A stretch of DNA of 40,615 bases. Origin: Pseudomonadota bacterium (GTDB lineage: Bacteria; Pseudomonadota; Alphaproteobacteria; Micropepsales; Micropepsaceae). The first letter of the stretch is position 1; every line of letters starts with the position of its first letter. The translations under genes and the position numbers were made by a program. Shown here piece by piece: positions 1 through 39,000 of this stretch. Below the pieces are notes generated by a model. It was not told the DNA's origin, made no database searches, and saw nothing but the letters and a program-made list of their open reading frames with translations. Where the stretch lies: assembly GCA_021804785.1 (NCBI GenBank), contig JAJZGY010000019.1:1-40615 (forward strand), read 5' to 3'.

Positions 1-127
1 TGATGGTATAATTCCATTCACCATGGAATGGGTCACGCACGATGTTGAGGTCGGCCATTTCGGCATCGGATATTTTGATGCCGGTAGTATAGCGATTTTC
101 ATCGAGCGCGCATCGTACGGTGAGCCC
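1..127 (-). pseudogene. ISAzo13-type transposase, C-terminal fragment
   Basis: Read on the minus strand in the frame that starts LTVRCALDENRY at about 124, this stretch continues TTGIKISDAEM and ends at the window edge with FHGEWNYTI. That run is typical of the C-terminal part of ISAzo13-family (Rhodopirellula-type DDE) transposases. No start is present and the upstream half is absent, because the reading switches into the integrase gene near 122-127. The element continues beyond position 1, so its 3' end cannot be judged. The assignment rests on motif recall. The fragment is clear but short. Confidence 0.6.
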
Positions 128-866
128 AGCGCAGTTCGCCTGGGCGCGGAAACAGCATCGCCATCAGTTTCAGACCCGCCACAGTCGGCGGCAGGCCGTC
201 GAAGCTGAAGATCGCCCGAAGCAGCCCACCCAACGCCTTGGGGTCGGTGATCGCGGCCCTGGAAACAACGCGAGGCGACGCAATTGCCCCCTTGAGCGCA
301 ATCGTCGGATCGTTCTCGGCCCTGGCGGTGATGACGGCATAGCGACAAACCGCGCCGATGGTCGCCCGCACCCGCCGGGCAGTTTCGAAATTGCCCTTTT
401 CCTCTATGTCCTGCAGTACCCGGAGGACGTGGACCGGCTTGATTTCGGCGACCTTCATCCGGCCCAGGGTCGGATACGCGAACTCCAGCAGCCATTTCTT
501 CTTGATCATAGTCGGCACAGCCAGGTTCTCGCGCCGCCGGCGCTCGATGTATTCCAGCGCGACGTCCTTGAAGGTGTCGCCGGGCAGCCGTTCCTCAGGT
601 ACTGGCTGTCGCCATTCCTGTGCAGGGTCCTTGCCGTCCCGCAGCAGCGCCTTAGCCAGGTCACGCCGCGAGCGGGCCTCCGACAGCGTCACCTCGGGAT
701 ATGGTCCGAGCGACAGCTGCCGCTGCTTTCCAGCGAAGTAATAGATCAATTGCCAGAGCTTCGATCCATTAGGCTGCACCCAGAACTGGAGGCCCTGTCC
801 GTCAGACAGTTTTCTGCGGCTGGCGCCGGGCTTCTCGGCTCGGCATTTGGCGTCTGTAAGCGTCAT
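99..866 (-). pseudogene. Truncated tyrosine integrase of the DUF4102 (P4-like) type
   Basis: 255 codons, against about 400 for the family. The N-terminal arm-binding DUF4102 domain (about residues 1-85: LTDAKCRAEKPG, LSDGQGLQFWV, LSLGPYPEVTLSEAR) and the core-binding SAM-like domain (about 100-200) are intact. The catalytic domain starts and keeps the first catalytic Arg (LFPRPGELRW), then breaks near position 122 and ends HRTMRAR. The box II His/Arg residues and the nucleophilic Tyr are missing, so it should be inactive. After the break the DNA reads as an ISAzo13 transposase end. Such integrases insert islands into tRNA 3' ends, and a tRNA-Leu-like end lies about 215 bp upstream of the start. 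Confidence 0.8.
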
Positions 867-2333: not shown

Positions 2334-3266
2334 TCAGCGGAAGTAGTTGAGCAAGGAGAGCTTGCCAAGCTGCGAGGTCACCTGCAGGGCGGCCTGCAGG
2401 GCAGTCTGGTTCTGGTTCAGGGTGGAGATCGCCTGGGCCATGTCGACGTTCTGGATGTTGGAGGCGAAGCCCTGATAGAGCGTGTTCATGGTGGTTTGCT
2501 GGGTGACTGCGTTCTGCAGTTGCTGATAGGTATCGCCATTGCTCGCCGCTGCGGTGTTGATGGTGGCGGCGGCGGTGGCGGCGCTGGTGATTTCGCCGGA
2601 CAAAAAATTGTTCTGTGCCGAGGTCAGCTGACTGCCGAGGGCGCCATTGGTGGTGGTGTAGTCGACGATGTCCTTGATGGTCTGCATCAGCTGGCTGCCG
2701 ACATCGGAGGCCAGAACGCCCACGGTCACGGTCTGCCCCTGTGCTACGGTGACTGTGGACTTCACGGTGCCGTTGGCAAAGACAGAGGCGCCGCTGGGCG
2801 CGGAGGCAAGCTGTGAAAGACTGCTGATGCTGACCGGTGGCGTATTGGTCTTGTCGCCGCCAAACAGGTAATTGCCATTGGCATCGGTCGAGTTGAGAAT
2901 CTGCGCGGCCTGATCGAACACCCCCTGCACCTGGGTCATGAGGTTGGAACCGTCATTGTTGGCGCTGGCGGTGGTGATGTCCTGGCGGAGCTGGTTGGCA
3001 AGATTGGAGAGCTGGGTGAGCTGGGTATCCTGCAGATTCGCCTGGTTCAGTCCGGCCTGGGCGGCTGCCTTGTAGGTGTTGGCGCGTGACGCGGCGGAGT
3101 TCGCCGCTTCCAGGGCCTGAACCTTGTCGCCATAGCCGGCATAGGTGTTTGATACGTTGCCGCTGCTGACCTGCTGCTCGCTTTGCGCCAGATTGGCATT
3201 GGCGGTGTTGAGCTGGGCGATCATCAGCTGCGTCTGGCCACTGTTGGTGATGCGGTCGATGCTCAT
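2334..3266 (-). CDS. flgL: Flagellar hook-filament junction protein FlgL
   Basis: 310 residues, normal for FlgL. The flagellin-like N-terminus (MSIDRITNSGQTQLMIAQLNTANANLAQSEQQ) and the C-terminal coiled segment (TMNTLYQGFASNIQNVDMAQAISTLNQNQTALQAALQ) form the helical D0/D1 domains that pack between FlgK and the first flagellin ring. The middle includes the family segment NYLFGGDKTNTPP. The start lies 11 bp after the flgK stop, with AAAGG upstream, so the two are co-transcribed. It is exported through the flagellar type III system and has no Sec signal. Confidence 0.93.
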   Translation of the reverse strand: MSIDRITNSGQTQLMIAQLNTANANLAQSEQQVSSGNVSNTYAGYGDKVQALEAANSAASRANTYKAAAQAGLNQANLQDTQLTQLSNLANQLRQDITTASANNDGSNLMTQVQGVFDQAAQILNSTDANGNYLFGGDKTNTPPVSISSLSQLASAPSGASVFANGTVKSTVTVAQGQTVTVGVLASDVGSQLMQTIKDIVDYTTTNGALGSQLTSAQNNFLSGEITSAATAAATINTAAASNGDTYQQLQNAVTQQTTMNTLYQGFASNIQNVDMAQAISTLNQNQTALQAALQVTSQLGKLSLLNYFR

Positions 3267-3277
3267 GATTTAGCCTT

Positions 3278-5413
3278 TCACTGGATCTGCAGCAGCGTGG
3301 TGTAAAGCGCATCTGCGGTCTGCAAGGCGCGCGCTGCGGCACTGTAAGCCTGCTGATAGCTCATCATGTTGGTCAGTTCCTGATCGAGATTGACGCCTGA
3401 AACCGACGATTGCTGGGTTTGGGCGGCGGTCAGAAGATCGCTTGTTTGGGTATTTGCGCTTTGCGCCGAGGAACTGCGCGTGGCGATGTCCTGATAGAGC
3501 GCGGAGGCATAACTTCCGAGGCTCGTGGTCTGGGCGGTCAGTGCACCGGCTTTGGCGAAACTCTGCTGATTGGTGGCGACGTTCTGCAGGGCGGTGAGAC
3601 CACGTGCGTCGCCTGCGGTGATGACGGTGCTGCCAACGGTTGCTCCTGAGAGGTTGGCCTGCGCGAAGGGAATGTCTTGTGGCGTATTCGTCAGCGCCGG
3701 GTTGACGCTGAAGCCGGATGCGAGAGCTGCCTGTTGGTCGGGGCCCACATTGAAGAGCTCCGTGAAGGACATGCCTGTATCGCCCCGGCTGGTGGTATCC
3801 TGGCTGACCGACAGGCTGTCATTGGCATAGTTGCTGCCAAGGCTCTGTGTGAGTGTGCCGCTCGCACCGAGCGAAAAGGTGGCGGCGCCCCCGAAGGCGC
3901 TGTTGAGTGCGCTGATGATGGAGCCGATGGTTTCGGTGCCGTTCAAGGTCACACTTGCGGTCTTGACGATCTGTCCGGTGGTGTCCTTGAGGGCCAGGGA
4001 GATAACGCCACCGGCAGCGAAATTGCCGGCGTCGCTAGTCGACATTCCGGTGGCGGTGATGGGTTGGCCCGAAGTACGGAAGATGTCATTGAGCCCGAAG
4101 AACTGGGCAAAACTGCTACCGCCCCGACTGGAGGGCGGGCTCGTCGTATCCTGAACTGCGATGCCATTGCCACCGGTGGCGGCCAGTGTGAGCGCGCCAT
4201 TGGCAAAGCTGCCGCTGCCGCTGGAGCCAAATGCACCGTTCAGGGTCGACAGGAAATCGCTGATCGTGCCGCCGAAGCCCATATTGGCCCCGCCATCCAC
4301 CGACATCTGGCCTGTGGTAAAATTGATGTCGATGCGATGGACGAGATTGCCATTGGCATCGGTGATGGCAAGCGTCGTGTTGCCGGTGAAGTTCATTGCG
4401 TCGCTGGAAACAAGACCAGTGTCCCGCCCGGTCAGTGACGCTGGTGCGGGATAGGAGGTGTTGGCATTGCTCTGGGCGTTGAACGCATTGGCGGTGGTCT
4501 GGGCAAAATTGCCGAGTTCCTGTCCCAGCTGGGCCAGGGCGCCATCACGCATATCGATGAAGCCCTGGAGCTTTCCAGAGGACAGATGCGGATCGAGCGC
4601 GGTAGTGCTGCCAACGCTTTGGCCGGTGGCCGGATCGATCATCGCGAGCTGAATGGGCGGATAGCTCCCCACCCCGTTCGAGGAGGTGTAGCTGAGCTGT
4701 CCGTAGCTGCTGCCGACCAGCGTTACCCCATCCTGCGTCGAGACAATCAGCTGCCCATTGGGTCCTGGCTGACTCCTTACTCCGATATATTGGGAGAGCT
4801 GCTGGAGTGCGGCGTCGCGCTGATCCATGAGCCCGTTTGGCGGGGTGGTGGTAGAATTGGCGGCACTGATCTGGGTGTTGAGGGTATAGATCTGGTTGAT
4901 GAGGGTGTTGACTGTCGCGATCGAGCCCGAGATCTGCTGGTCGACATTGGTACGCAGGCCCTGAATCGAGTTTGACAGGTTCGAAATCGTGCTGGCCAGA
5001 TTGCCGAAGGAATTGACTGCGGCCTGCTGGTTAGGCAGCGAGGTGGGGGCGAGCGAAGCGCTGCTGAGCGCCGAGAACACGTTATCGAGCTGGCTCGAGA
5101 TCGAGCTGCCACTTCCAGGGGACCCCAGAAACGCGTTGAGCTGAGTATAGGTATCGTTCTGCACTCCGGCCTGAGAGGCGGCGCCCTGGGCGGAGAGCAC
5201 CTGCGCATTGAGAAACTGGTCGGTGATGCGCTGGATATCGGCCACATCGACGCCGCTGAGCTGACTGCCGGAAACCTGGGCCTGCTGGTTGACCACTTCA
5301 CGGGCGTAGCCCGTGGTATTCATATTGGCGATGTTGTTGGAAATGGTGCTGAGCGCGGTCTGGCTTACCGACAGCCCTGACAAGGCGCTTCCGAAGATGC
5401 CATTGATGGACAC
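3278..5413 (-). CDS. flgK: Flagellar hook-associated protein 1 FlgK
   Basis: 711 residues from a GTG start at 5413. The N-terminus (SINGIFGSALSGLSVSQTAL, then SNNIANMNTTGYAREVV at 25-40) and the C-terminus (LTNMMSYQQAYSAAARALQTADALYTTLLQI) are the conserved rod/hook/HAP motifs. The central part is Ser/Thr/Gly-rich. The frame is open further upstream to 5515, but that would include a sigma-54 promoter at 5476-5490. GGAG lies 8 nt before the GTG, so 5413 is preferred. FlgK is the first junction ring on the hook and is followed by flgL. Confidence 0.93.
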   Translation of the reverse strand: MSINGIFGSALSGLSVSQTALSTISNNIANMNTTGYAREVVNQQAQVSGSQLSGVDVADIQRITDQFLNAQVLSAQGAASQAGVQNDTYTQLNAFLGSPGSGSSISSQLDNVFSALSSASLAPTSLPNQQAAVNSFGNLASTISNLSNSIQGLRTNVDQQISGSIATVNTLINQIYTLNTQISAANSTTTPPNGLMDQRDAALQQLSQYIGVRSQPGPNGQLIVSTQDGVTLVGSSYGQLSYTSSNGVGSYPPIQLAMIDPATGQSVGSTTALDPHLSSGKLQGFIDMRDGALAQLGQELGNFAQTTANAFNAQSNANTSYPAPASLTGRDTGLVSSDAMNFTGNTTLAITDANGNLVHRIDINFTTGQMSVDGGANMGFGGTISDFLSTLNGAFGSSGSGSFANGALTLAATGGNGIAVQDTTSPPSSRGGSSFAQFFGLNDIFRTSGQPITATGMSTSDAGNFAAGGVISLALKDTTGQIVKTASVTLNGTETIGSIISALNSAFGGAATFSLGASGTLTQSLGSNYANDSLSVSQDTTSRGDTGMSFTELFNVGPDQQAALASGFSVNPALTNTPQDIPFAQANLSGATVGSTVITAGDARGLTALQNVATNQQSFAKAGALTAQTTSLGSYASALYQDIATRSSSAQSANTQTSDLLTAAQTQQSSVSGVNLDQELTNMMSYQQAYSAAARALQTADALYTTLLQIQ

Positions 5414-5475
5414 GGGGCTTGCTCCACTCCTGTCCTGCGGGCGTGCGCAGGATACGATCTGCCGCTGACGCACAC

Positions 5476-5490
5476 GCAAATGCCGTGCCA
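5476..5490 (-). promoter_or_regulatory. Sigma-54 promoter of flgKL (-24/-12)
   Basis: The minus strand reads TGGCACGGCATTTGC, a full match to the TGGCACG-N4-TTGC consensus. Transcription should start near 5464, leaving about a 50-nt leader to the GTG at 5413. It fits the late flagellar genes that FlbD activates with RpoN, and FlbD is encoded in this window. Confidence 0.85.
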
Positions 5491-5540
5491 GTTCTTGAAT
5501 GGTGAAATCGGCCACTTTCTCTGCCTGGCACGGACTCGAG

Positions 5541-5578
5541 CGGCAGGCTTTGCCGGTCTGACCGGCAGCTTCTGCCGG
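5541..5578. promoter_or_regulatory. Paired palindromes, candidate FlbD (ftr-like) enhancer
   Basis: Two copies of CGGCA-N5-TGCCG occur at 5541-5555 and 5563-5577. Their centres are 22 bp apart, two turns of helix; the second extends to CCGGCAGCTTCTGCCGG (5562-5578). A further palindrome, GCCGGT-CTG-ACCGGC, spans 5552-5566. The block lies about 95-110 bp upstream of both predicted sigma-54 start sites, the distance usual for bacterial enhancers and for Caulobacter ftr elements. The symmetry is directly visible; binding by FlbD is inferred. Confidence 0.6.
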
Positions 5579-5639
5579 CAGCGCCCGAAATCCTGGCGGC
5601 CGCCTATGAATATCCGCGGAATGTCTGGCGGCTGCGACT

Positions 5640-5654
5640 TGGTCCGGCTCTTGC
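5640..5654 (+). promoter_or_regulatory. Sigma-54 promoter of fliK-flgD-flgE
   Basis: TGGTCCGGCTCTTGC matches TGGCACG-N4-TTGC at the invariant GG and GC and at all but two other consensus positions (C4 to T, A5 to C). Predicted transcription start near 5666, about 70 nt before the fliK ATG. It faces away from the flgK promoter and shares the palindromic block between them. Confidence 0.65.
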
Positions 5655-5735
5655 TTGGGTGTTTGCGCGAAACCTTTGGGATGTGCCCGCTTGGCTGCAG
5701 CTGCTGTCCTTGCACCTTTATCTAAGGCAAGTGCG

Positions 5736-7331
5736 ATGCCGGCGCTGATGGAGACGTCTGCGTCCAGCTCCAGTGCAGGCGATCACTTTGATACCCACCT
5801 GCGTCTTGCCACAGCCGCGGCGCAGCCCCCCAGGAGCAGCTCGGCCGGCAACGTGTCATCAGCCACAACGGGCGAGGCTCAGGCCCTGGATCCTACGCAC
5901 TCAGGCACCTCGCCCAGCGCAATTCTTCCGGTGGTCGCCAGCCAGGCGCAGACCCAGGCTGGAGGCAAGCCCGTGCCCGCCCCGCCCTCCGTACAAAAGA
6001 GCACCCCTTCGGCGTCGACGTTGCCGAATACGGGCACGGGCAGCCAGATCGCTGCAGCGAAGGTGTCAGTGACAGCTGATCCTGCTGGGGCAGCTGCGCC
6101 ACAGATTTCCGCGCCAGCATCGAAAGGCGCCAATCCCCAGTCCGCATCATCCACAAAAGCGGCGACGGCAAAGCCCGACGCGCCGGGCAAGGCCCGTAGC
6201 AATGGGACTGCGAGCATTGCGGCCAATTCCGCTCTTCTGCTCTCCACTCCCTCCACTGCGGATGGGACGCCGAGCGCCGCCTCATCTGCTGCGTCGGCCC
6301 CTCAAACGGCGTCATCTGCTGGCGCCGCGGCGAATGCTGCCGCCAAAGCGGGTGGGCAGAATAAGTCCACCACCGCCACAGCTCCTTCGACCTTGGTGCT
6401 GGCCATGTCGGGAGCTGCAGCGGTGCAGTTCGCCCCGGGCGTTTTAGCAAAGCCGGCATCTGCTAAAGCCTCGGACGCGATCACGCTTGATGGCGGCAAT
6501 AGTCTTGCCCGCAGTGTGGCAGGCACGCAGGGCTCCTTGGCATCCACGACCGCTCAGCCGGACGGCGGCAGCGCGGGTGCCGGGGGCAACAGTTCCATGC
6601 CCGCGCCAGGGGCGGCGGCCGCCCAGACCATGGTGGCAGCCAATGCTGCGAACGGCAGTCCAGGATCAAAGTCGGAGTCACCGCCCGCCTCGTCTCCGTC
6701 CGCGCATGGCAGCAGTGGTCTTGCGGCTGCGTCGCGCCCTGGCGGAGCCGGGAGCGTAGCGGCCGGCGCGATGCAATCCGCGCCAACACCCTCAGCAGGA
6801 GGGGCTTCGCCTCTAACTGTGACCACCCTTCCAGGAGCCGCGGTGACACCGCTGCCGACCCAGCAGGTGAGCGTTTCCCTGATGCCCTCCACTGGCGCGA
6901 ACCCGTCGGCGGTGCCGATCAGCAATCTTGGTCTTCTGGCCTTCAACATCGCCGCGCAGACCCGAGGCGGCGTCAGGAAATTCGACATCGCACTGCACCC
7001 GGCCGATCTTGGAAGCATCGCGGTACAGATGAGTGTAAGCGCCAATGGCACCGCGCAGCTGCATCTGCAGGCGGCAAATCCGCAGACGCTGCAATTGCTG
7101 CGTCAGGACGCGCCGCAACTTCAGACCGCACTCAAGGATGCTGGCATCAATCTTGCTGGTAACGGACTTAACTTCTCACTTCAGGGCCAGCAGCAGAACG
7201 CTGGTGGGTTTACGCCCAGGCCCAATTCCAATCTGGCGTTGTCGGCGGTGCCAAGCGTCGACAGCCAAGCCATCACCACCGTCAATGCCATCCACTATTC
7301 CGGCAGCGGCCGGCTCGACATCAACGTCTAA
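5736..7331 (+). CDS. fliK: Flagellar hook-length control protein FliK
   Basis: 531 residues from ATG 5736, which has AAGG 8 nt upstream. The frame is open back to 5655, but that overlaps the sigma-54 promoter. Residues 1 to about 390 are low-complexity Ala/Ser/Pro/Gly, as expected for the unfolded ruler part. The C-terminal Flg_hook domain (about 405-490) has VRKFDIALHPADLGSIAVQM, LHLQAANPQTLQLLRQ and LQTALKDAGINLAG. FliK is exported during hook growth and, through this domain, switches the export gate from hook to filament substrates. flgD follows after 11 bp. The N-terminal part cannot be assigned by motif; the call rests on the C-terminus and the position. Confidence 0.85.
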   Translation: MPALMETSASSSSAGDHFDTHLRLATAAAQPPRSSSAGNVSSATTGEAQALDPTHSGTSPSAILPVVASQAQTQAGGKPVPAPPSVQKSTPSASTLPNTGTGSQIAAAKVSVTADPAGAAAPQISAPASKGANPQSASSTKAATAKPDAPGKARSNGTASIAANSALLLSTPSTADGTPSAASSAASAPQTASSAGAAANAAAKAGGQNKSTTATAPSTLVLAMSGAAAVQFAPGVLAKPASAKASDAITLDGGNSLARSVAGTQGSLASTTAQPDGGSAGAGGNSSMPAPGAAAAQTMVAANAANGSPGSKSESPPASSPSAHGSSGLAAASRPGGAGSVAAGAMQSAPTPSAGGASPLTVTTLPGAAVTPLPTQQVSVSLMPSTGANPSAVPISNLGLLAFNIAAQTRGGVRKFDIALHPADLGSIAVQMSVSANGTAQLHLQAANPQTLQLLRQDAPQLQTALKDAGINLAGNGLNFSLQGQQQNAGGFTPRPNSNLALSAVPSVDSQAITTVNAIHYSGSGRLDINV

Positions 7332-7342
7332 GAGGACGTCCC

Positions 7343-8008
7343 ATGACGACGATTACCCCCAACCTTCCCGCGACCTCGAGCACAGCGCCGGCAACGACGG
7401 CCAATGCGCTCAACCAGCTCTCCGGTAATTTCGACAGCTTTCTGAAATTGCTGACGACGCAATTGCAGAACCAGGACCCCACCAGTCCGATGAGCAGCAC
7501 GCAGTTTACGCAGCAGCTGGTTGCATTCAGCCAGGTCGAGCAGCAGATCAACACCAACTCCAATCTGCAGACCCTGATCAATCTGGCGCAGAGCAACGGC
7601 ACCTCCAGTGCGGTATCCTATCTAGGAAAGACGGTGACGCTGACCAATGGCGAGGCACCGCTGACAGGTGGTGTGGCAAACTGGAACTATGCGCTTGGCA
7701 CCAATGCCGCAGCGACGACGCTAACCGTCACCGACGCCAACAACAAAGTGGTTTATGTCGGTTCGGGGCAGACCACGGCAGGGATGCATCAGTTTACCTG
7801 GAACGGCCAGGACAACAACGGCACACAGTTGCCCGATGGCACCTATAAGCTCACGGTCACTGCGGCCGACAGCGGTGGCGCGAATGTGACGTCAGCGGTG
7901 TCCACCAGCGGTCCGGTGACCCAGGTTGATCTTTCGGGCTCAACGCCGCAGCTCATGATGGGCGCCATGTCGTTCCCGCTGTCATCTGTTTCGGCCGTTT
8001 CCGGCTGA
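7343..8008 (+). CDS. flgD: Hook-capping scaffold protein FlgD
   Basis: 221 residues, usual for FlgD. The N-terminal capping motif is at about 30-68 (FDSFLKLLTTQLQNQDPTSP, then FTQQLVAFSQVEQ). The C-terminal FlgD Ig-like/TUDOR part carries WNGQDNNGTQLPDGTYKLTV at about 153-172. FlgD sits at the tip of the growing hook and places FlgE subunits; it is lost from the finished hook. GAGG lies 7 nt before the ATG. It belongs to the fliK operon. Confidence 0.93.
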   Translation: MTTITPNLPATSSTAPATTANALNQLSGNFDSFLKLLTTQLQNQDPTSPMSSTQFTQQLVAFSQVEQQINTNSNLQTLINLAQSNGTSSAVSYLGKTVTLTNGEAPLTGGVANWNYALGTNAAATTLTVTDANNKVVYVGSGQTTAGMHQFTWNGQDNNGTQLPDGTYKLTVTAADSGGANVTSAVSTSGPVTQVDLSGSTPQLMMGAMSFPLSSVSAVSG

Positions 8009-8106: not shown

Positions 8107-9426
8107 ATGAGCATCTATGGTGCAATGTCTACCGCAGTGACGGCCCTCGACGCCTATTCGACGGCGCTTGGAACCACCTCGGCCAATATCGCCAACCTCA
8201 ACACGGTCGGTTACAAGACCGGCGCGACGAGCTTTTCGACGCTGCTGGCCTCGACCATGGGTAATTCGGACGTGTCCTCCGCGGGGGTATCGTCTTCGAC
8301 CGGACAGCTGATATCGCAGCAGGGGCAGTTGCAGACCACCAATTCGAACACCGATCTTGCCCTTACGGGTAACGGATTCTTTGTGGTCAATACCTCGCCG
8401 ACCTCGCCAGGCACCGCCAATTCACTTTACTACACCCGTGCGGGCAGTTTCACGCCGGACGCCCAGGGCAATCTGAAGAACGCCTCAGGATATTATCTGA
8501 TGGGGTGGGCCCTTGATTCCAACGGCAATATTCCTTCCAACCAGAACGATCTGACACCGGTCAATGTCAACGCCCTGGCGGGCAAGGCTGATCCCACCAC
8601 CTCGATCAGCTATGCGGCCAATCTGCAGGCTTCCACGCCGGTCACCACCGGATACGTCGCGGGAGACATGGCCAATGGCACGGTGACACCGACCTTCCAG
8701 CGCACGGTCAACATCTTTGACGGGCAGGGCGGTTCTCAGCCCGTGCAGTTCTCCTTCGTCAAGACTGCGGCCAATCAGTGGAGCTACGAGGTCAGCTATG
8801 AGGGAAGCTCTTCGAACATCTCTCCGGCAACCAATCCGATCTATTCCGGAACGATGAGCTTCAACACCGATGGCACCCTTGCCAATGCCAATACATCGCT
8901 CAATCCACCCAGTGGCACGATCACCCTCAACCTGCCGTGGAATTCGGCATCGGGACTGTCTGCCCAGAGTGTCACAGTCAATCTGGGTACGGTGGGCAGC
9001 TCCAATGGCATGACCCAGTTCGACAGTACCTCGACCCAGGTGTCGTCCAACGTCAACGGTGCGCTGTTCGGCTCGCTGACCGGCGTCAGTGTCGACAACA
9101 ACGGCGTTGTGACGGCCCAGTTCTCGAACGGTTTGACACAGGATATCTACAAGCTGCCAGTGGCGACGTTTGCCAATCCCAATGGTCTGGATGCCGCCAA
9201 CGGTCAGGCCTACACGACCTCGAATAATTCAGGTACGCCCAGCATCAGCTTGGCCAATACCGGTGGTGCCGGCGCGATCAACTCCAAGTCACTTGAGTCA
9301 TCGACCGTCAATCTCGATACGGAATTCACCAATCTGATCAGCATGCAGAGTGCCTATTCGGCAGCGTCGAAGGTTATCACGACCTCGTCAAGCATGCTCA
9401 ATACGCTTCTGGCAGTGATCCCATAA
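8107..9426 (+). CDS. flgE: Flagellar hook protein FlgE
   Basis: 439 residues. The N-terminal rod/hook motif is MSIYGAMSTAVTALDAYSTAL, then ANIANLNTVGYKTGATSFS. The FlgE/F/G central signature includes GNGFFVV and YYTRAGSFTPDAQGNL. The C-terminal helix is EFTNLISMQSAYSAASKVI. The length fits hook protein better than the shorter rod proteins FlgF and FlgG, and the position after flgD agrees. AAGGAAG precedes the ATG. The 98 bp before the gene show no clear promoter, so read-through from the fliK promoter is likely. Confidence 0.92.
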   Translation: MSIYGAMSTAVTALDAYSTALGTTSANIANLNTVGYKTGATSFSTLLASTMGNSDVSSAGVSSSTGQLISQQGQLQTTNSNTDLALTGNGFFVVNTSPTSPGTANSLYYTRAGSFTPDAQGNLKNASGYYLMGWALDSNGNIPSNQNDLTPVNVNALAGKADPTTSISYAANLQASTPVTTGYVAGDMANGTVTPTFQRTVNIFDGQGGSQPVQFSFVKTAANQWSYEVSYEGSSSNISPATNPIYSGTMSFNTDGTLANANTSLNPPSGTITLNLPWNSASGLSAQSVTVNLGTVGSSNGMTQFDSTSTQVSSNVNGALFGSLTGVSVDNNGVVTAQFSNGLTQDIYKLPVATFANPNGLDAANGQAYTTSNNSGTPSISLANTGGAGAINSKSLESSTVNLDTEFTNLISMQSAYSAASKVITTSSSMLNTLLAVIP

Positions 9427-13740: not shown

Positions 13741-15108
13741 ATGCGGTTACTCATCATCGGCGGGTTGCAGGGCCAGATCGGGGCAGCGACCAAGATCGCG
13801 ATGGCGCGCGGTGCCAAAGTTACCCATGCCGGAGACATCGACCAGGCGCTGGCGGAGCTGCGGGCCGGTCGCGGTGCCGATCTCGTGCTTGCGGATGTCA
13901 GCGAAGACATCGGCCGGCTGGTGCGGGCACTGGCAGGTGAACGCATCTGCACGCCGGTGGTGGCCTGTGGTGTGGGCACCGATGCCCGCCGTGCCGTCGA
14001 TGCGATCCGTGCCGGGGCCAAGGAATATCTGCCCTTGCCGCCCGATCCGGAACTGATTGCAGCGGTGCTGGCCGCGGTTGCCGATGACAGCCACCAGATG
14101 ATTTACGAGGACGATGCGATGGCCAAGGTCATCGTCCTGGCCGATCAGGTTGCTGGCAGTGAGGCCTCGATCCTCATCACCGGTGAGAGTGGTACCGGCA
14201 AGGAAGTGATGGCGCGCTATATCCACAAGAAATCCGCGCGCGCCGACAAGCCGTTCATCTCGGTCAACTGTGCCGCCATTCCTGACAATCTGCTCGAATC
14301 CGAACTGTTCGGTCATGAAAAAGGGGCCTTTACCGGTGCCATTGCAAGGCGTGTCGGCAAGTTTGAGGAGGCCAATGGCGGCACGCTGCTGCTCGATGAA
14401 ATCAGCGAGATGGATGTGCGGCTGCAGGCCAAGCTTTTGCGCGCCATTCAGGAGCGCGAGATCGATCGGGTGGGCGGCGGCAAGCCGGTCAAGGTCGACA
14501 TCCGCATCATCGCCACCTCCAATCGCGACCTCGCGGAGGCGGTGCGCCTGGGCAGTTTCCGCGAGGACCTTCTCTACCGGCTCAATGTCGTGAATTTGCG
14601 CCTGCCTTCGCTCCGAGACCGGCCCCGAGACATCCTGGCGCTGGCCCGGCACTTTGGCCACAAATATGCCGATGCCAATGGCACGCCACACCGGCCGCTC
14701 GCCTCGGCGACGGAGCGGCTCCTGATCGGCTATGGCTGGCGCGGCAATGTCCGCGAGCTCGAAAACACCATGCATCGGGCGGTTCTTCTCGCCCATGGCA
14801 GCGAAATCGACCCCGACGCCATCCGCCTTCCGGACGGCACCCAGGTCGGGGAGATGGTTACACGGCTGCCGACGGGAGCAGAGAGCAGCCCCAGTGACAG
14901 TGCCTGGTCAAAACCTCTGGTTGGACGCACGGTGGCCGATGTCGAGCGTGACCTCATCCTGGACACGCTCAACCACTGTCTCGGCAACCGCACCCATGCC
15001 GCCACCATATTGGGCATTTCGATCCGTACTCTGCGCAACAAGCTGCGTGAATATGGCCAGGCCGGCCTTGCGGTTCCGGCTCCGGGCGAAGCGAGACTGG
15101 CGGGCTGA
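13741..15108 (+). CDS. flbD: Sigma-54 transcriptional activator FlbD
   Basis: 455 residues. It has an N-terminal receiver-like domain (1 to about 115), a central AAA+ domain with Walker A GESGTGKE (about 148-155), the sigma-54 contact loop GAFTGA (195-200) and Walker B GGTLLLDE, and a C-terminal Fis-type helix-turn-helix (ATILGISIRTLRNKLREYG). In the receiver the acidic pair after strand 1 is Gly-Gly, and the usual Lys-Pro is Leu-Pro (99-100); Asp52 remains. Ordinary phosphorylation is therefore unlikely, as proposed for Caulobacter FlbD. It should activate the flgK and fliK promoters and may restrain fliF. Confidence 0.9.
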   Translation: MRLLIIGGLQGQIGAATKIAMARGAKVTHAGDIDQALAELRAGRGADLVLADVSEDIGRLVRALAGERICTPVVACGVGTDARRAVDAIRAGAKEYLPLPPDPELIAAVLAAVADDSHQMIYEDDAMAKVIVLADQVAGSEASILITGESGTGKEVMARYIHKKSARADKPFISVNCAAIPDNLLESELFGHEKGAFTGAIARRVGKFEEANGGTLLLDEISEMDVRLQAKLLRAIQEREIDRVGGGKPVKVDIRIIATSNRDLAEAVRLGSFREDLLYRLNVVNLRLPSLRDRPRDILALARHFGHKYADANGTPHRPLASATERLLIGYGWRGNVRELENTMHRAVLLAHGSEIDPDAIRLPDGTQVGEMVTRLPTGAESSPSDSAWSKPLVGRTVADVERDLILDTLNHCLGNRTHAATILGISIRTLRNKLREYGQAGLAVPAPGEARLAG

Positions 15109-20603: not shown

Positions 20604-20798
20604 ATGCCGCGCACGCTCGCTCAGTGGGTTGGAATTGTGGTCACCACGATCACCGTTCTTGGTGCCAGGCATGATTTTGCACTGGCGGTGGCTTTGGGCG
20701 TGATGGCTGGCGGAGTTGCGACCTTCTTTGTCGCGCTCGATGCCCAACATCGGCAGCAGCGAGCGATGCAGCAGGAGACCTCCTTGCCGCGTCAGTGA
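20604..20798 (+). CDS. Small two-helix membrane protein of unknown function
   Basis: 64 residues: a short N-terminus, a first hydrophobic segment (about 7-20, VGIVVTTITVLGA), a second (about 25-45, FALAVALGVMAGGVATFFVAL) and a polar Gln-rich tail. AGGGAG lies 9 nt before the ATG and a perfect CtrA box lies 65 bp upstream, which supports a real gene. Its stop overlaps the convergent motA stop by 7 bp. I do not recognise a family. Confidence 0.5.
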   Translation: MPRTLAQWVGIVVTTITVLGARHDFALAVALGVMAGGVATFFVALDAQHRQQRAMQQETSLPRQ

Positions 20799-21661
20799 TC
20801 CGGCCGAATCGACTCGAGCGCCTTTTCCAGTTCCTGAAAGCTCGGTTGGGCCTCGCTCGGTACGCTACCGCGGCCGATCTCGACCGAGACCTGGGCGGCA
20901 TTGCCGTGCAAGTGGGCTACCAGAATGTCCTGGATCACATGATAGAACTGGGCATCCTCTTCGACGATCGACTTCAGCCGTGTGGCGACCGGCGCGACGA
21001 TGCCGTAGGCGAGGAACACGCCCATGAAGGTGCCGACGAGGGCCGAACCGATCATGCTGCCGAGGATTTCGGGGGGCTCTGAGATCGATCCCATGGTCTT
21101 GATCACGCCCAGCACGGCGGCGACGATGCCGAGGGCGGGCAGGGCATCGGCCATGCTCTGCAGCGCCGTGGCTGGCGACAGGGCCTCGTGGTGGAATTTC
21201 TCGAGCTGCTTTTCCATGGCGGTCTCGACCTGGTGCGGATCCTCGAGACTCATGGTCATCATTCGCAGCGTGTCGCAGATGAAGGCGAGCGCGAAGGCAT
21301 CCTTGGTGATGCGCGGGTAGCGTTTGAAGATCGAACTTTCTGTAGGCTTTTCGATATGGGCCTCCAGTGCGATCAGGCCCTTGGACTTCATGGTTTTGGT
21401 GAGAAGGTAAAGCAGGCACAAAAGATCAGTATAATCGCCATGCTTCCACTTGGGGCCCGAGACAATCTTGCCGAGCTCGCGACCGATCTGTTTGAGCGAA
21501 TGTATGGAACCACCGATGAGCGTCGCCGCCAGCGCTGCTCCGCCAATGGTGATCATCTCGTGCGGGAGGGCTTCGAGCACCACTCCGAGCGAGCCACCGC
21601 TCAGGATAAAGCCGCCAAACACCGCCACGAACAAAAAGATAATGCCGCCGATCTGAAGCAT
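20792..21661 (-). CDS. motA: Flagellar stator protein MotA
   Basis: 289 residues from ATG 21661 (LQIGGIIFLFVAVFGGFILSGG). The frame is open to 21733, but the extra residues are polar and atypical. Four membrane helices are visible: about 1-24, 32-50, 168-190 and 200-225. The conserved LPALGIVAAVLGVIKTMG lies in the third, with the channel-lining Pro, and PPEILGSMIGSALVGTFMGVFLAYGI forms the fourth. The cytoplasmic loop has the torque-region charges. MotA needs MotB for ion flow; motB is not adjacent, as in Caulobacter. Confidence 0.92.
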   Translation of the reverse strand: MLQIGGIIFLFVAVFGGFILSGGSLGVVLEALPHEMITIGGAALAATLIGGSIHSLKQIGRELGKIVSGPKWKHGDYTDLLCLLYLLTKTMKSKGLIALEAHIEKPTESSIFKRYPRITKDAFALAFICDTLRMMTMSLEDPHQVETAMEKQLEKFHHEALSPATALQSMADALPALGIVAAVLGVIKTMGSISEPPEILGSMIGSALVGTFMGVFLAYGIVAPVATRLKSIVEEDAQFYHVIQDILVAHLHGNAAQVSVEIGRGSVPSEAQPSFQELEKALESIRPDH

Positions 21662-21810
21662 TGTGCGCAAATCCGCTGTTCCGGCGCGCTCGCTGCGTGC
21701 CGGCCTGACCTCTGTCAGTATTAAGAGAAGCACTTAAGGAGCGGTGAATATGGAACCGATTAGACGCCCTAAATGCAGATACTTGCGGGAAAATTGGGGC
21801 CGTGCGCGCG

Positions 21811-28851: not shown

Positions 28852-31221
28852 ATGGCAATCGACAGCGACACACTTTTCCTGCAGATGGACGCTTACTGGC
28901 GTGCTGCCAACTATCTTGCAGTGGGGCAGATTTATTTGCGTGATAATCCGCTCTTGCGTCGTCCGCTCGTGCGCAGTGACATCAAGCACATGCTGCTCGG
29001 TCATTGGGGGACGACGCCGGGGCAGAACTTCATCTATGTGCACCTGAACCGCATCATCAATACCTACGACCTCAACATGATCTACATCTCGGGCCCCGGC
29101 CATGGCGGGCCGGCGGTGGTGGGGAACAGCTATCTTGAGGGTACCTACAGCGAGATCTATCCCCAGATCAGTGAGGACGAGGATGGCCTCAGGCGCCTGT
29201 TCACCCAGTTTTCCTTTCCCGGCGGCATTCCCAGCCATGCCTCACCCGAATGTCCAGGCTCGATCCATGAAGGTGGCGAGCTTGGCTACTCTTTGAGCCA
29301 CGCCTTCGGTGCGGCGTTTGACAATCCAGATCTTGTTGTCGCCTGCGTCGTGGGTGACGGTGAGGCGGAGACCGGGCCGTTGGCGACCTCCTGGCACTCT
29401 AACAAGTTCCTCAACCCGCGCCGGGATGGCGCCGTGCTGCCCATCTTGCACCTCAATGGCTATAAGATCGCCAATCCCACGGTCTTGGCGCGCATCAGCC
29501 CGCAGGAGCTTGATCAGCTCCTGCGCGGCTATGGCTGGACGCCGCTTTATGTGGAGGGCGACGAGCCCGTGGCGATGCACCGCAAGATGGCCGCCGCCCT
29601 TGATGAGGCGATCGCAAGCATCCAGCACATCCAGGAGCGGGCACGCAAAGAGGGCCAGAGCACGCGCCCCAGCTGGCCGATGATTGTGTTGCGTTCGCCC
29701 AAAGGCTGGACCGGACCAAAAGTGGTCGATGGGGTCGCCATTGAGGGCACGTTTCATGCGCACCAGGTGCCCTTGCTTGGCTTTGACGAGCATCCCCAAC
29801 ATGTGAAGATGTTGGGAGACTGGCTCAGAAGCTATCGCCCGGAGGAACTCTTTGACGCCAGGGGCAGGCTGAAAGAGGAATTGCGCGCGCTTGCCCCCAA
29901 GGGCGTGCGGCGCATGGGGGCTAATCCTCATGCCAATGGCGGCAGCCTGCTCAAGGATCTGAGGCTGCCCGATTTTCGTGACTATCGCGTCGAGGTCCCG
30001 GAGCCTGGGACCCCTGGTATCGGGGATACCCATGTTCTGGGACGCTATGTGCGCGATGTGCTGCGGCAGAACCGCGAGACGCACAATTTCCGTCTGTTCG
30101 GTCCGGACGAAACAATTTCCAACGGCCTTGAAGCCGTGTTCGACGTCACTGCGCGGCAATGGGAAGGTGAGACGAAGGCCAGTGACGAGCATCTGGCAAA
30201 GGAGGGCGAGGTGCTCGAGATGCTCAGCGAGCATCAGTGCGAAGGCTGGCTGGAGGGCTATCTGCTCACCGGACGACACGGCCTGTTCAACTGCTATGAG
30301 GCCTTTATCCACATCGTCGATTCGATGTTCAATCAACATGCCAAATGGCTCAAGGTCACCGCGGGATTACCCTGGCGGTACAAAATCGCGTCGCTCAATT
30401 ATCTGCTGTCCTCGCATGTCTGGCGGCAAGATCACAACGGCTTCACCCATCAGGATCCGGGCTTTCTCGATCATGTGGTGAACAAGAAGTCAGGGGTGGT
30501 GCGGGTGTATCTGCCTCCGGATGCCAACTGCCTGCTGTCGGTGATGGACCACTGCTTGAGGAGCCGGCACTATGTCAACGTGGTCATTGCCGGCAAGCAC
30601 CCCTCACCGCAATGGCTGACCATGGAGCAGGCGGTGATACACTGCACGGAGGGGATCGGTGTCTGGCCGTGGGCGAGCAATGACCAAGCCGATGAGCCGG
30701 ATATTGTCATGGCCTGCTGCGGTGATGTACCGACGCTTGAGACACTCGCAGCGGTGAGCATTTTGCGGACACATCTGCCAGAGCTTCGACTCCGGGTCGT
30801 CAATGTCGTCGATTTGATGAAGTTGCAGCCGCAAAGCGAGCATCCCCATGGCCTCAGCGACCGTGAATTCGATGAGATCTTTACCCGGGACCGGCCGGTC
30901 ATTTTTGCCTTTCACGGTTATCCCTGGCTGATTCATCGCCTGACCTATCGGCGCACAAATCACCACAACATCCATGTTCGCGGCTACAAGGAGGAGGGCA
31001 CGATCACGACCCCGTTCGACATGACGGTCTTGAATGATCTGGATCGCTTTCACCTCGTGATGGATGTCATCGACCGGATGCCGGCGACGAAGGCCCGTGG
31101 CGTCTACCTCAAGCAGAGGCTCACGGACAAGCTCATCGAGCACCGTCAGTACATTGGCGAACAGGGCCTTGATCTGCCGGAGATCCGGAACTGGCAGTGG
31201 CCAAACACAAGTCTCGCCTGA
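28852..31221 (+). CDS. xfp: Xylulose-5-phosphate/fructose-6-phosphate phosphoketolase
   Basis: 789 residues, full length. Thiamine-diphosphate enzyme splitting xylulose 5-P or fructose 6-P with phosphate into acetyl phosphate plus glyceraldehyde 3-P or erythrose 4-P. Signatures: [29 protein letters not shown], the XFP pattern [21 protein letters not shown] and the ThDP/Mg motif [19 protein letters not shown]; also [18 protein letters not shown]. The Shine-Dalgarno is weak. Acetate kinase follows after 42 bp and would use the acetyl phosphate. Whether it prefers C5 or C6 sugar cannot be read from the sequence. Confidence 0.96.
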
Positions 31222-37719: not shown

Positions 37720-39000
37720 TCAGGCGCGGCATTGATCCGCTCCTGAGTCGCTTCGGCGGGTTCCTGCTGCTGGCGGCATTGCTGCACCGCTCACTTCACA
37801 GGCGATCCGGGCTGCGGTGCTCCGCCTGAGCGAAGCGTCGCTCGTGTCCTGCCCTTCGTCTCGCAACGTCTGATTCCCGCGAGAGAGGATGTTGATCGCG
37901 CCGACGACATCGGCGTTTTCCTCGAAACCGCATTCGACGCACAGGAATTGCGCCTGCATCTGCCGGTTGTCCGCCGACACATGACCGCAGCGCGGACAGG
38001 TGCGGCTCGTGTACTGCGGCGGCACGGCGATGAGATGCCCGCCGGTCCACGCCAGCTTGTAGTCCAGTTGGCGGCGGAACTCGAACCAGCGTTGATCGAG
38101 GATGGACTTGTTCAAGCCCGACTTGGCCCGAACGTTTCTTCCCGGTGCATCTGCCGTGCCTGCCGCCGACCTGGACATGCTCCGCACCTGCAAGTCCTCG
38201 ATACACACCATCGCGTGGTTTTGGCTGATCGTGGTGGAGCACTTGTGCAGGTAGTCGCGGCGGGCGTTGCCGATGCGGGAATGGATGCGCTGGACGCGGG
38301 CTTTCGCCTTCTTCCAGTTGCTGCTGAATTTGGTTTTGTGGCTCATGGCCTGCTGCGCCTTGCGCAGAGCCGTTTCATGCCGCTTGAAGCTATTGAGGGG
38401 CGCGTAGAACGTGCCGTCCGAAAGCGTGGCGAAGCGGGCAATGCCCATGTCGAGTCCGACCGCATCACCCTGCAAGATGGGCTGCTCAATCTCGCGCTCG
38501 GTCTGGATGCTCACGAACCACTTGCCGCAAGACTGGCTCACGGTGATGTTCTTTACCGTGCCCAGCACCTCGCGGCTGTTGCGGTAGCGCAGCCAGCCAA
38601 GCTTGGGCAGGAACAGGCGGTTGTTGGCCTGATCGAGCTTGATCTGTTTCGGGTCGGGATAGCGGAAGCTGTCGGACTGGCCCTTCTTCTTGAAACGCGG
38701 AACGTCGGCCCGCCTGGCGAAGACGTTGGCATAGGCCCGCTCCAGATCCTTGAGCGTCTGTTGCAGGGGGTGGACTGGCGCATCGGCCAGCCAGGCCGTT
38801 TGCGTGCTGTTGCGCCACTCGGTGAGCAGCTTGCACAACCCGGCGTAGCCGAGCGTCTTCTCGCCTTGCTCGTGGCGTTCCTTCTGCAGCGCCAGCGCCT
38901 TGTTGAAGACGAACCGACACGCGCCAGCGAAGCGGCGCATCTGCCGCTCCTGCTGGCCGTCTGGCATCAGTTCGTACTTAAAGGCTTGAGGGCGTAGCAT
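37720..39000 (-). CDS. tnpB: TnpB RNA-guided nuclease (IS200/IS605 family)
   Basis: 426 residues, apparently intact. The N-terminal helix-turn-helix part (KYELMPDGQQERQMRRFAGACRFVFNKAL) and the RuvC-like core are complete. Acidic residues are Asp184 in VGLDMGIARF, Glu268 in CIEDLQVRSM and Asp364 in NADVVGAINI; the zinc finger uses Cys335, 338, 354 and 357. TnpB cuts DNA next to a TAM using an omegaRNA and is the ancestor of Cas12. About 45 C-terminal residues after the last motif are Ser/Ala-rich. A broken tnpA lies divergent, 22 bp away. Confidence 0.92.
   Translation of the reverse strand: MLRPQAFKYELMPDGQQERQMRRFAGACRFVFNKALALQKERHEQGEKTLGYAGLCKLLTEWRNSTQTAWLADAPVHPLQQTLKDLERAYANVFARRADVPRFKKKGQSDSFRYPDPKQIKLDQANNRLFLPKLGWLRYRNSREVLGTVKNITVSQSCGKWFVSIQTEREIEQPILQGDAVGLDMGIARFATLSDGTFYAPLNSFKRHETALRKAQQAMSHKTKFSSNWKKAKARVQRIHSRIGNARRDYLHKCSTTISQNHAMVCIEDLQVRSMSRSAAGTADAPGRNVRAKSGLNKSILDQRWFEFRRQLDYKLAWTGGHLIAVPPQYTSRTCPRCGHVSADNRQMQAQFLCVECGFEENADVVGAINILSRGNQTLRDEGQDTSDASLRRSTAARIACEVSGAAMPPAAGTRRSDSGADQCRA

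Follow-up and report, generated by a model that had tools for sequence, protein, structure and literature searches.

The divergent arrangement of flgK and the fliK-flgD-flgE genes in a genome of the family Micropepsaceae (Alphaproteobacteria) raises the question of whether one enhancer serves two sigma-54 promoters that point away from each other, and of how its position relative to both is maintained. The window analysed here is the whole stretch of 40,615 nt of contig JAJZGY010000019.1 (assembly GCA_021804785.1). A first-pass annotation had proposed that one enhancer drives both genes through FlbD, and the conserved sequence blocks, the two-sided helical register and the presence in the genome of a single FlbD above the family cut-off argue for that proposal. 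We consider it highly probable that the interval 5464-5666 comprises divergent sigma-54 promoters with one shared central enhancer of two FlbD (ftr-type) sites. The basis is the sites themselves, which are conserved and recur at other flagellar sigma-54 promoters, the likely gene starts and the register kept on both sides.

Genomes and loci compared

Genomes scoring above the cut-off of the flgE_Caulobact family (G157 and G370, as well as the named control Caulobacter vibrioides) carry the same class label, which places the host in the Alphaproteobacteria. In the database the order is a single family with 7 genera and 96 genomes, and order- and family-level searches gave the same genomes. A match was found in 69 family genomes and 64 loci were read; L155 was dropped as it had no upstream sequence, and L089, where the contig ends 280 bp upstream, entered neither the distance counts nor the alignment (29 of 30 aligned). 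The locus L128, from another genus, served as outgroup only. The Caulobacteraceae sample comprised 20 hand-picked genomes of the 102 with a match.

Divergent promoters and gene starts

The flgK promoter (TGGCACG-GCAT-TTGC, TGGCACGGCATTTGC) lies on the minus strand at 5476-5490, with a predicted transcription start at 5464. It had been described as a consensus -24/-12 element, and both its coordinates and its match to the consensus proved exact; a genome pattern scan placed it among six exact copies of TGGCACG-N4-TTGC in 3.29 Mb. The promoter assigned to fliK (TGGTCCG-GCTC-TTGC, TGGTCCGGCTCTTGC; 5640-5654, plus strand; predicted start 5666) had been called a good one. Its coordinates stand, but it carries two mismatches to the consensus and on that count alone is within chance, with 29 sites of at most two mismatches in the window against 22.6 expected; it is credible because it is conserved in the genus. 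TGGTCCG is the most frequent form of the fliK promoter across the genus, and a site with at most two mismatches to TGGNCCG-N4-TTGC precedes fliK in all 47 genus loci of sufficient length. A sigma-54 site with at most two mismatches likewise precedes flgK in 48 of 48 genus genomes, the source genome included. The predicted transcription starts, 5464 and 5666, agree with the earlier annotation.

The promoters had also been said to correct the starts of the two genes, and this reading is upheld. For flgK (3278-5413, minus strand) the likely start is GTG 5413, and not the mechanically called GTG 5515, giving a 51-nt leader and the sequence MSINGIFG, which is kept in relatives. For fliK (5691-7331, plus strand; Flg_hook domain) the start is likely TTG 5691, with a 25-nt leader, rather than the mechanically called TTG 5655. 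An in-frame ATG, GTG or TTG lies 20-25 nt past the predicted fliK start in 39 of 48 loci (47 from the genus and the outgroup L128) and is absent from the other 9; on comparing the in-frame starts over these 48 loci, ATG 5736 and TTG 5655 were both rejected.

A flgL-like gene adjoins flgK (2334-3266, minus strand) and matches FlgL and flagellin models, both below the NCBIfam cut-offs. On the plus strand fliK is followed by flgD (7343-8008), by flgE, which encodes the hook protein (8107-9426), and by a DUF1153 gene (PF06627; 9469-9858) situated between flgE and fliF. We take DUF1153 to be the family of SciP, an inhibitor of CtrA that presumably occupies the same place in Caulobacter. The order in the window is flgL-like and flgK on the minus strand and, on the plus strand, fliK, flgD, flgE, the DUF1153 gene, fliF, fliG, one gene without assignment, fliN, flbD, flhA and an FlhF-like gene.

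The central palindrome pair

Between the promoters lie two exact CGGCA-N5-TGCCG palindromes, both putative FlbD (ftr-like) sites, one flgK-proximal at 5541-5555 (CGGCAGGCTTTGCCG) and the other fliK-proximal at 5563-5577 (CGGCAGCTTCTGCCG). Their centres, 5548 and 5570, are 22 bp apart, as the first-pass annotation had it. Its statement that the sites are about 95-110 bp from each start is true of the middle of the pair, but the single centres span 84-118 bp: 5548 precedes the flgK start by 84 bp and the fliK start by 118 bp, and for 5570 the corresponding figures are 106 and 96 bp. Two exact palindromes in the window compare with 0.22 expected by chance, and 2 of 100 shuffled windows held two exact copies anywhere. 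Genome-wide, the pattern occurs 37 times, against 7 for a reversed control.

A central palindrome with at most one mismatch is present in 47 of the 48 gaps of the genus (81 sites against 1.6 expected), and the 30 best family matches all belong to the same genus and share the same layout. When 29 of these gaps were aligned, four strong blocks, judged from the consensus line, were conserved between the predicted starts: GCAAGGGCCGGACCA, which is the fliK promoter, GGCA-N-GA-N-CTGCC, CGGCAAACTCTGCCG, and TGGCACGG-N-GCTTGC. The third of these is the most frequent genus form of the flgK-proximal palindrome, read on the flgK strand. In the aligned gaps the half-sites are conserved and the middle five bases and the spacing vary.

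Spacing within the pair was 18 bp in 10, 19 bp in 32, 20 bp in 3 and 22 bp in 2 of 47 genus genomes. The earlier description of a two-turn pair therefore holds for the source genome (G000) but not as a rule: the 22-bp spacing is confined to the source species and one close relative (G061), since the other 45 of the 47 have 18-20 bp, and two-turn spacing as a general feature was rejected.

FlbD and other flagellar promoters of the genome

In Caulobacter, FlbD binds ftr motifs, activating middle and late genes and repressing early ones, according to an excerpt of PMC3930126. The proposed enhancer-binding protein of the source genome is encoded at 13741-15108 on the plus strand, which bears out the earlier remark that FlbD is encoded 8 kb away; it scores 797.6 bits against NCBIfam NF050807 (cut-off 750) and, of ten matches to the model in the genome, is the only one above the equivalog cut-off. 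In the genus sample none of the 8 genomes without FlgK has an FlbD above the cut-off. Among the 29 genomes with FlgK, 22 have an FlbD above the cut-off, 4 have it in pieces (G038, G059, G061 and G070) and 3 have none, namely G027 and G028 (about 75% complete) and G075, which is estimated to be complete and has a flgK contig that ends 280 bp upstream.

It had been suggested that the palindrome be sought at other flagellar sigma-54 promoters, where a lack of enrichment would count against the proposal. That check found it also at two flagellin genes and at flgF, in each case upstream together with a sigma-54 site, as at flgK and fliK. The flagellin genes (contig C16; locus L035, 5594-6738) are preceded by four FlbD-type palindromes, three of them exact and one nearly so. 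The first has an exact copy 111 bp upstream of its predicted sigma-54 start, and the second has exact copies at 122 and 165 bp and a further copy with one mismatch at 92 bp; the 15-mer at 165 bp is identical to window positions 5541-5555. In the flgF-flgG-flgA operon, which is divergent from fliL-fliM, the palindrome is 87 bp upstream of the predicted start and the sigma-54-like site is weaker, with two mismatches. The palindrome is therefore present at five sigma-54 flagellar promoters (flgK, fliK, the two flagellins and flgF), a tally that is not unbiased because it was the palindrome that led to flgF. Rod-family genes, searched for independently, fell into four operons: flgK, fliK-flgD-flgE, flgF-flgG and a pair resembling flgB/flgC, so named from size and family. 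The first three of the four have both a sigma-54 site and the palindrome. The flgB-like operon lacks the palindrome, and no sigma-54 site was found upstream of it under the rule used.

The sequence upstream of the flgB-like gene (contig C128, L283) contains TTAA-type repeats and CGGCA half-sites. The TTAA repeats resemble CtrA boxes, and this promoter is possibly activated by CtrA and repressed by FlbD.

Thirty sigma-54 matches were checked: the full set of 6 without mismatch and, of those with one mismatch, the first 24 of a list in contig order. Within -250 to +220 of these, an exact palindrome was present solely at flgK and the two flagellins. At the other four sigma-54 matches without mismatch, no palindrome of at most one mismatch lay within the same limits, and one of the one-mismatch sites checked, which is not tied to a flagellar gene, had a one-mismatch copy. 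The genome total of 37 exact palindromes is about fivefold above the reversed control, though 31 of the 37 are outside the five flagellar promoters.

Helical register of site-promoter distances

Across 47 genus genomes the flgK start was separated from the proximal site by 75-76 bp in 3, 84-89 bp in 22, 95-101 bp in 21 and 112 bp in 1, and in the same set the fliK start was separated from the distal site by 78 bp in 1, 88-89 bp in 2, 96-102 bp in 41 and 110-111 bp in 3. Parsimony on the FlgK tree, with the palindrome pair of L082 reassigned by hand beforehand, gave changes of at least 3 bp that amounted to 9, 9, 9, 10, 11, 12 and 20 bp on the flgK side and 4, 10, 10, 10, 10 and 10 bp on the fliK side; the remaining changes in distance between species were of only 1-2 bp. 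Counting as in phase those that deviate by at most 2 bp from 10.5 or 21, 12 of the 13 changes were in phase (7/7 on the flgK side and 5/6 on the fliK side), for which the binomial p against a uniform 3-22 is 1.4e-4, a figure that refers to 13 inferred events in related genomes. The flgK leader in these genomes served as a control, with 1 of 5 changes in phase, or 1 of 7 with the outgroup kept. Over 60 bootstrap trees the mean number in phase was 6.4 of 7.8 on the flgK side, 5.2 of 6.4 on the fliK side and 1.0 of 5.5 for the leader, and the lowest single trees gave in-phase shares of 0.50 and 0.56. The promoter-to-promoter distance was without phasing (7 of 16 in phase on the main FlgK tree). 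These patterns suggest that, over evolution, the sites have been kept on the side of the helix that suits both promoters. The exact period may differ from 10.5 bp, because a Rayleigh scan preferred periods of 12.25 and 11.65 bp (resultants of 0.73 and 0.77 against 0.60 and 0.73 for 10.5). In the outgroup L128 the fliK-side distance is 134 bp.

Distances were also counted in a set of 78 Caulobacteraceae-type loci (74 distinct), of which 68 have a flgK sigma-54 site and 51 a downstream palindrome with at most one mismatch; L207 was left out, and the counts are uncorrected for relatedness. From the flgK start to the downstream site these 51 loci show only 77-80 bp (3), 88-90 bp (36), 100-101 bp (9) and 110-112 bp (3). 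From the central site to the fliK start, the 33 loci counted show 97, 99, 108-111 (29 loci), 113 and 143 bp, and from the central site to the flgK start the distances are more scattered, from 65 to 148 bp. A test of open-frame length was of no help in separating coding from intergenic palindromes. Since the downstream distances of this set cluster too, the register looks like a general property of such pairings of FlbD with sigma-54, with or without an IHF consensus. In enhancers of the NtrC and NifA type the sites likewise lie some 100 bp away from a -24/-12 promoter and are sensitive to helical phase; the present case differs in that phase is read from natural variation and at two promoters at once. 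Among the literature matches listed, no title or opening of an abstract dealt with FlbD phasing or with promoters of the source genus.

Downstream sites, IHF and comparison with Caulobacter

The arrangement is not new in kind, having a precedent in Caulobacter flaN/flbG that the first-pass annotation did not mention. To judge from titles cited in PMC3096577, Mullin and Newton (1993) treated the divergent flaN/flbG units with downstream ftr2 and ftr3, and Gober and Shapiro (1990, 1992) treated IHF and a 3-prime enhancer in Caulobacter. In the locus L242, labelled C. vibrioides, fliK-flgD is divergent from flgK, a central ftr-like palindrome with two mismatches can be read by eye from the sequence, and a downstream palindrome (CGGCAAGTTTCGCCG) is situated 61 nt before the flgK start codon. 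This gene layout agrees with our assumption that flaN is flgK and that flbG is part of the hook operon.

The two systems have in common the divergent flgK and fliK-flgD, sigma-54 sites on both sides, FlbD as activator and, in many Caulobacter loci, a central ftr-like palindrome. They differ in that in Caulobacter the flgK leader runs to about 150 nt, a palindrome follows the start and both spacers have an IHF consensus, whereas in the focal genus the leader is short, the palindromes form a central pair with none downstream, and matches to the IHF consensus are near the level of chance. The locus has the divergent genes of flaN/flbG in the strict sense and lacks the downstream ftr; the IHF consensus, counted over the spacers of the genus as a whole, is scarce, and a divergent IHF site may be present. 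As an FlbD/ftr-type element it has a -24/-12 flagellar promoter, a palindrome about 100 bp off and an FlbD encoded in the genome, the match to ftr being made through the Caulobacter palindromes and not through a published consensus.

The distribution of the layouts was as follows. Among 20 Caulobacteraceae loci (19 with a sigma-54 site and 1 without under the rule) the flgK leader is 122-166 nt, and the palindrome is downstream in 15/19 and central in 10/19. In the overlapping set of named Caulobacter-/Phenylobacterium-type loci, 26 of 30 entered the palindrome count, with the palindrome downstream in 23/26 and central in 19/26; 19 entered the IHF count, and ten Azospirillum loci were left out. 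Five other genera of the focal family have the downstream palindrome in 14/14 and a central one in 4/14. In the focal genus it is downstream in 0/48 and central in 47/48, with a median flgK leader of 30 nt (51 in the source genome), and the genus g2 has the same distribution (downstream 0/1, central 1/1). In L101 and L127 a one-mismatch copy of the palindrome overlaps the predicted flgK start. Elsewhere in the class, a sigma-54 site precedes flgK by 130-260 nt in 19 of the 27 best loci, and 12 of these 19 have a downstream palindrome with at most one mismatch; 6 of the 27 have no site under the rule, and in L169 and L173, which belong to one family, the leader is short and there is no palindrome. 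On inspection of where each layout occurs, the simplest reading is that the focal genus has lost the downstream sites.

Matches with at most one mismatch to an IHF consensus, which we took to be WATCAANNNNTTR, occur in the Caulobacter loci in 17/19 on the fliK side (2.1 expected) and in 16/19 downstream of flgK (0.7 expected). The genus-level counts for the focal genus are 1/47 on the fliK side (1.1 expected) and 3/47 on the flgK side (0.6 expected). Scarcity of the consensus is common to the family, since its other genera, counted without L207, also have 1/14 on each side (0.2 expected each). Use of IHF elsewhere in the source genome is possible, because one of its flagellin promoters has a site with one mismatch.

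A probable shared enhancer and its alternatives

By analogy with the Caulobacter work, FlbD would become active once the early flagellar structure had been built, would bind the two palindromes as adjacent dimers and would then oligomerise. Short loops of the DNA, over the 84-118 bp between site centres and starts, could bring it into contact with sigma-54 polymerase at either promoter, and the fliK-flgD-flgE and flgK-flgL genes would be switched on at the same stage of assembly. Because downstream ftr-like sites and most IHF matches are missing, the two operons would both rely on the central sites. What is new with respect to Caulobacter is a genus without downstream palindromes and with few IHF consensus sites, in which natural spacing variants differ by about whole turns on both sides. 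A more specific proposition, which we hold tentatively and with slightly more doubt than belief, is that this is a divergent enhancer independent of IHF, in which an ancestral downstream ftr and a long flgK leader have been lost, so that a single FlbD pair is phased to both promoters and only changes of 1-2 bp or of whole turns are tolerated.

The register might instead stem from a few inherited insertions or from a bias in indels, and not from selection. Such an origin, which we think rather unlikely, would suit the small number of events of at least 3 bp (13, in related genomes), a bootstrap share of about 82% and a best-fit period closer to 12 than to 10.5 bp, but it sits poorly with the leader control, in which 1 of 5 changes was in phase, and with the discrete clusters of the 51 Caulobacteraceae-type downstream distances, uncorrected for relatedness as these are. 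It is also unlikely that the palindromes serve one promoter only, the other being weak or driven from elsewhere. Sequence alone assigns no site to a promoter, and Caulobacter flaN, by a title cited in PMC3096577, needs downstream elements, with palindromes in the leader there; against this, no flgK leader among the 48 genus genomes contains a palindrome with at most one mismatch, and the register is kept on both sides.

Binding of the palindromes by a regulator other than FlbD appears improbable. The nine further matches to the FlbD model, all below the cut-off, and the many exact palindromes away from the five flagellar promoters would allow for it, but the motif marks flagellar sigma-54 promoters, and it is at such promoters that Caulobacter FlbD binds ftr motifs, as the excerpt of PMC3930126 has it. 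Finally, inverted repeats may form RNA hairpins, as a terminator or leader element, and as a single DNA strand the stretch does fold better than shuffles (z = -2.93); this explanation was rejected as having almost no likelihood, since the pair is upstream of both predicted starts, there is no T run and the half-sites are kept while the bases and spacing between them vary.

If a shared, phased FlbD enhancer is indeed what the genus possesses, its natural variants are a ready-made phasing series for enhancer looping. Caulobacter flaN/flbG is a classic among bacterial enhancers, combining IHF with elements on both the upstream and the downstream side, and dozens of species with spacings about whole turns apart would make sharing, phase and the need for IHF testable by natural promoter swaps. 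Corrected starts are proposed for two genes, and there is a clear motif with which FlbD regulons could be mapped.

Other genes in the window

Beyond the flagellar genes described above, the window contains a MotA-type motor gene at 20792-21733 (minus strand) and, on the same contig as the flagellar cluster, a phosphoketolase with N, middle and C domains at 28852-31221 (plus strand). An IS605 OrfB-type protein with a Cas12f1-like TNB domain is encoded at 37720-39000 (minus strand), and near the contig edge, at 99-866 (minus strand), there is a match to an integrase domain model at 83.1 bits, below the cut-off of 434.
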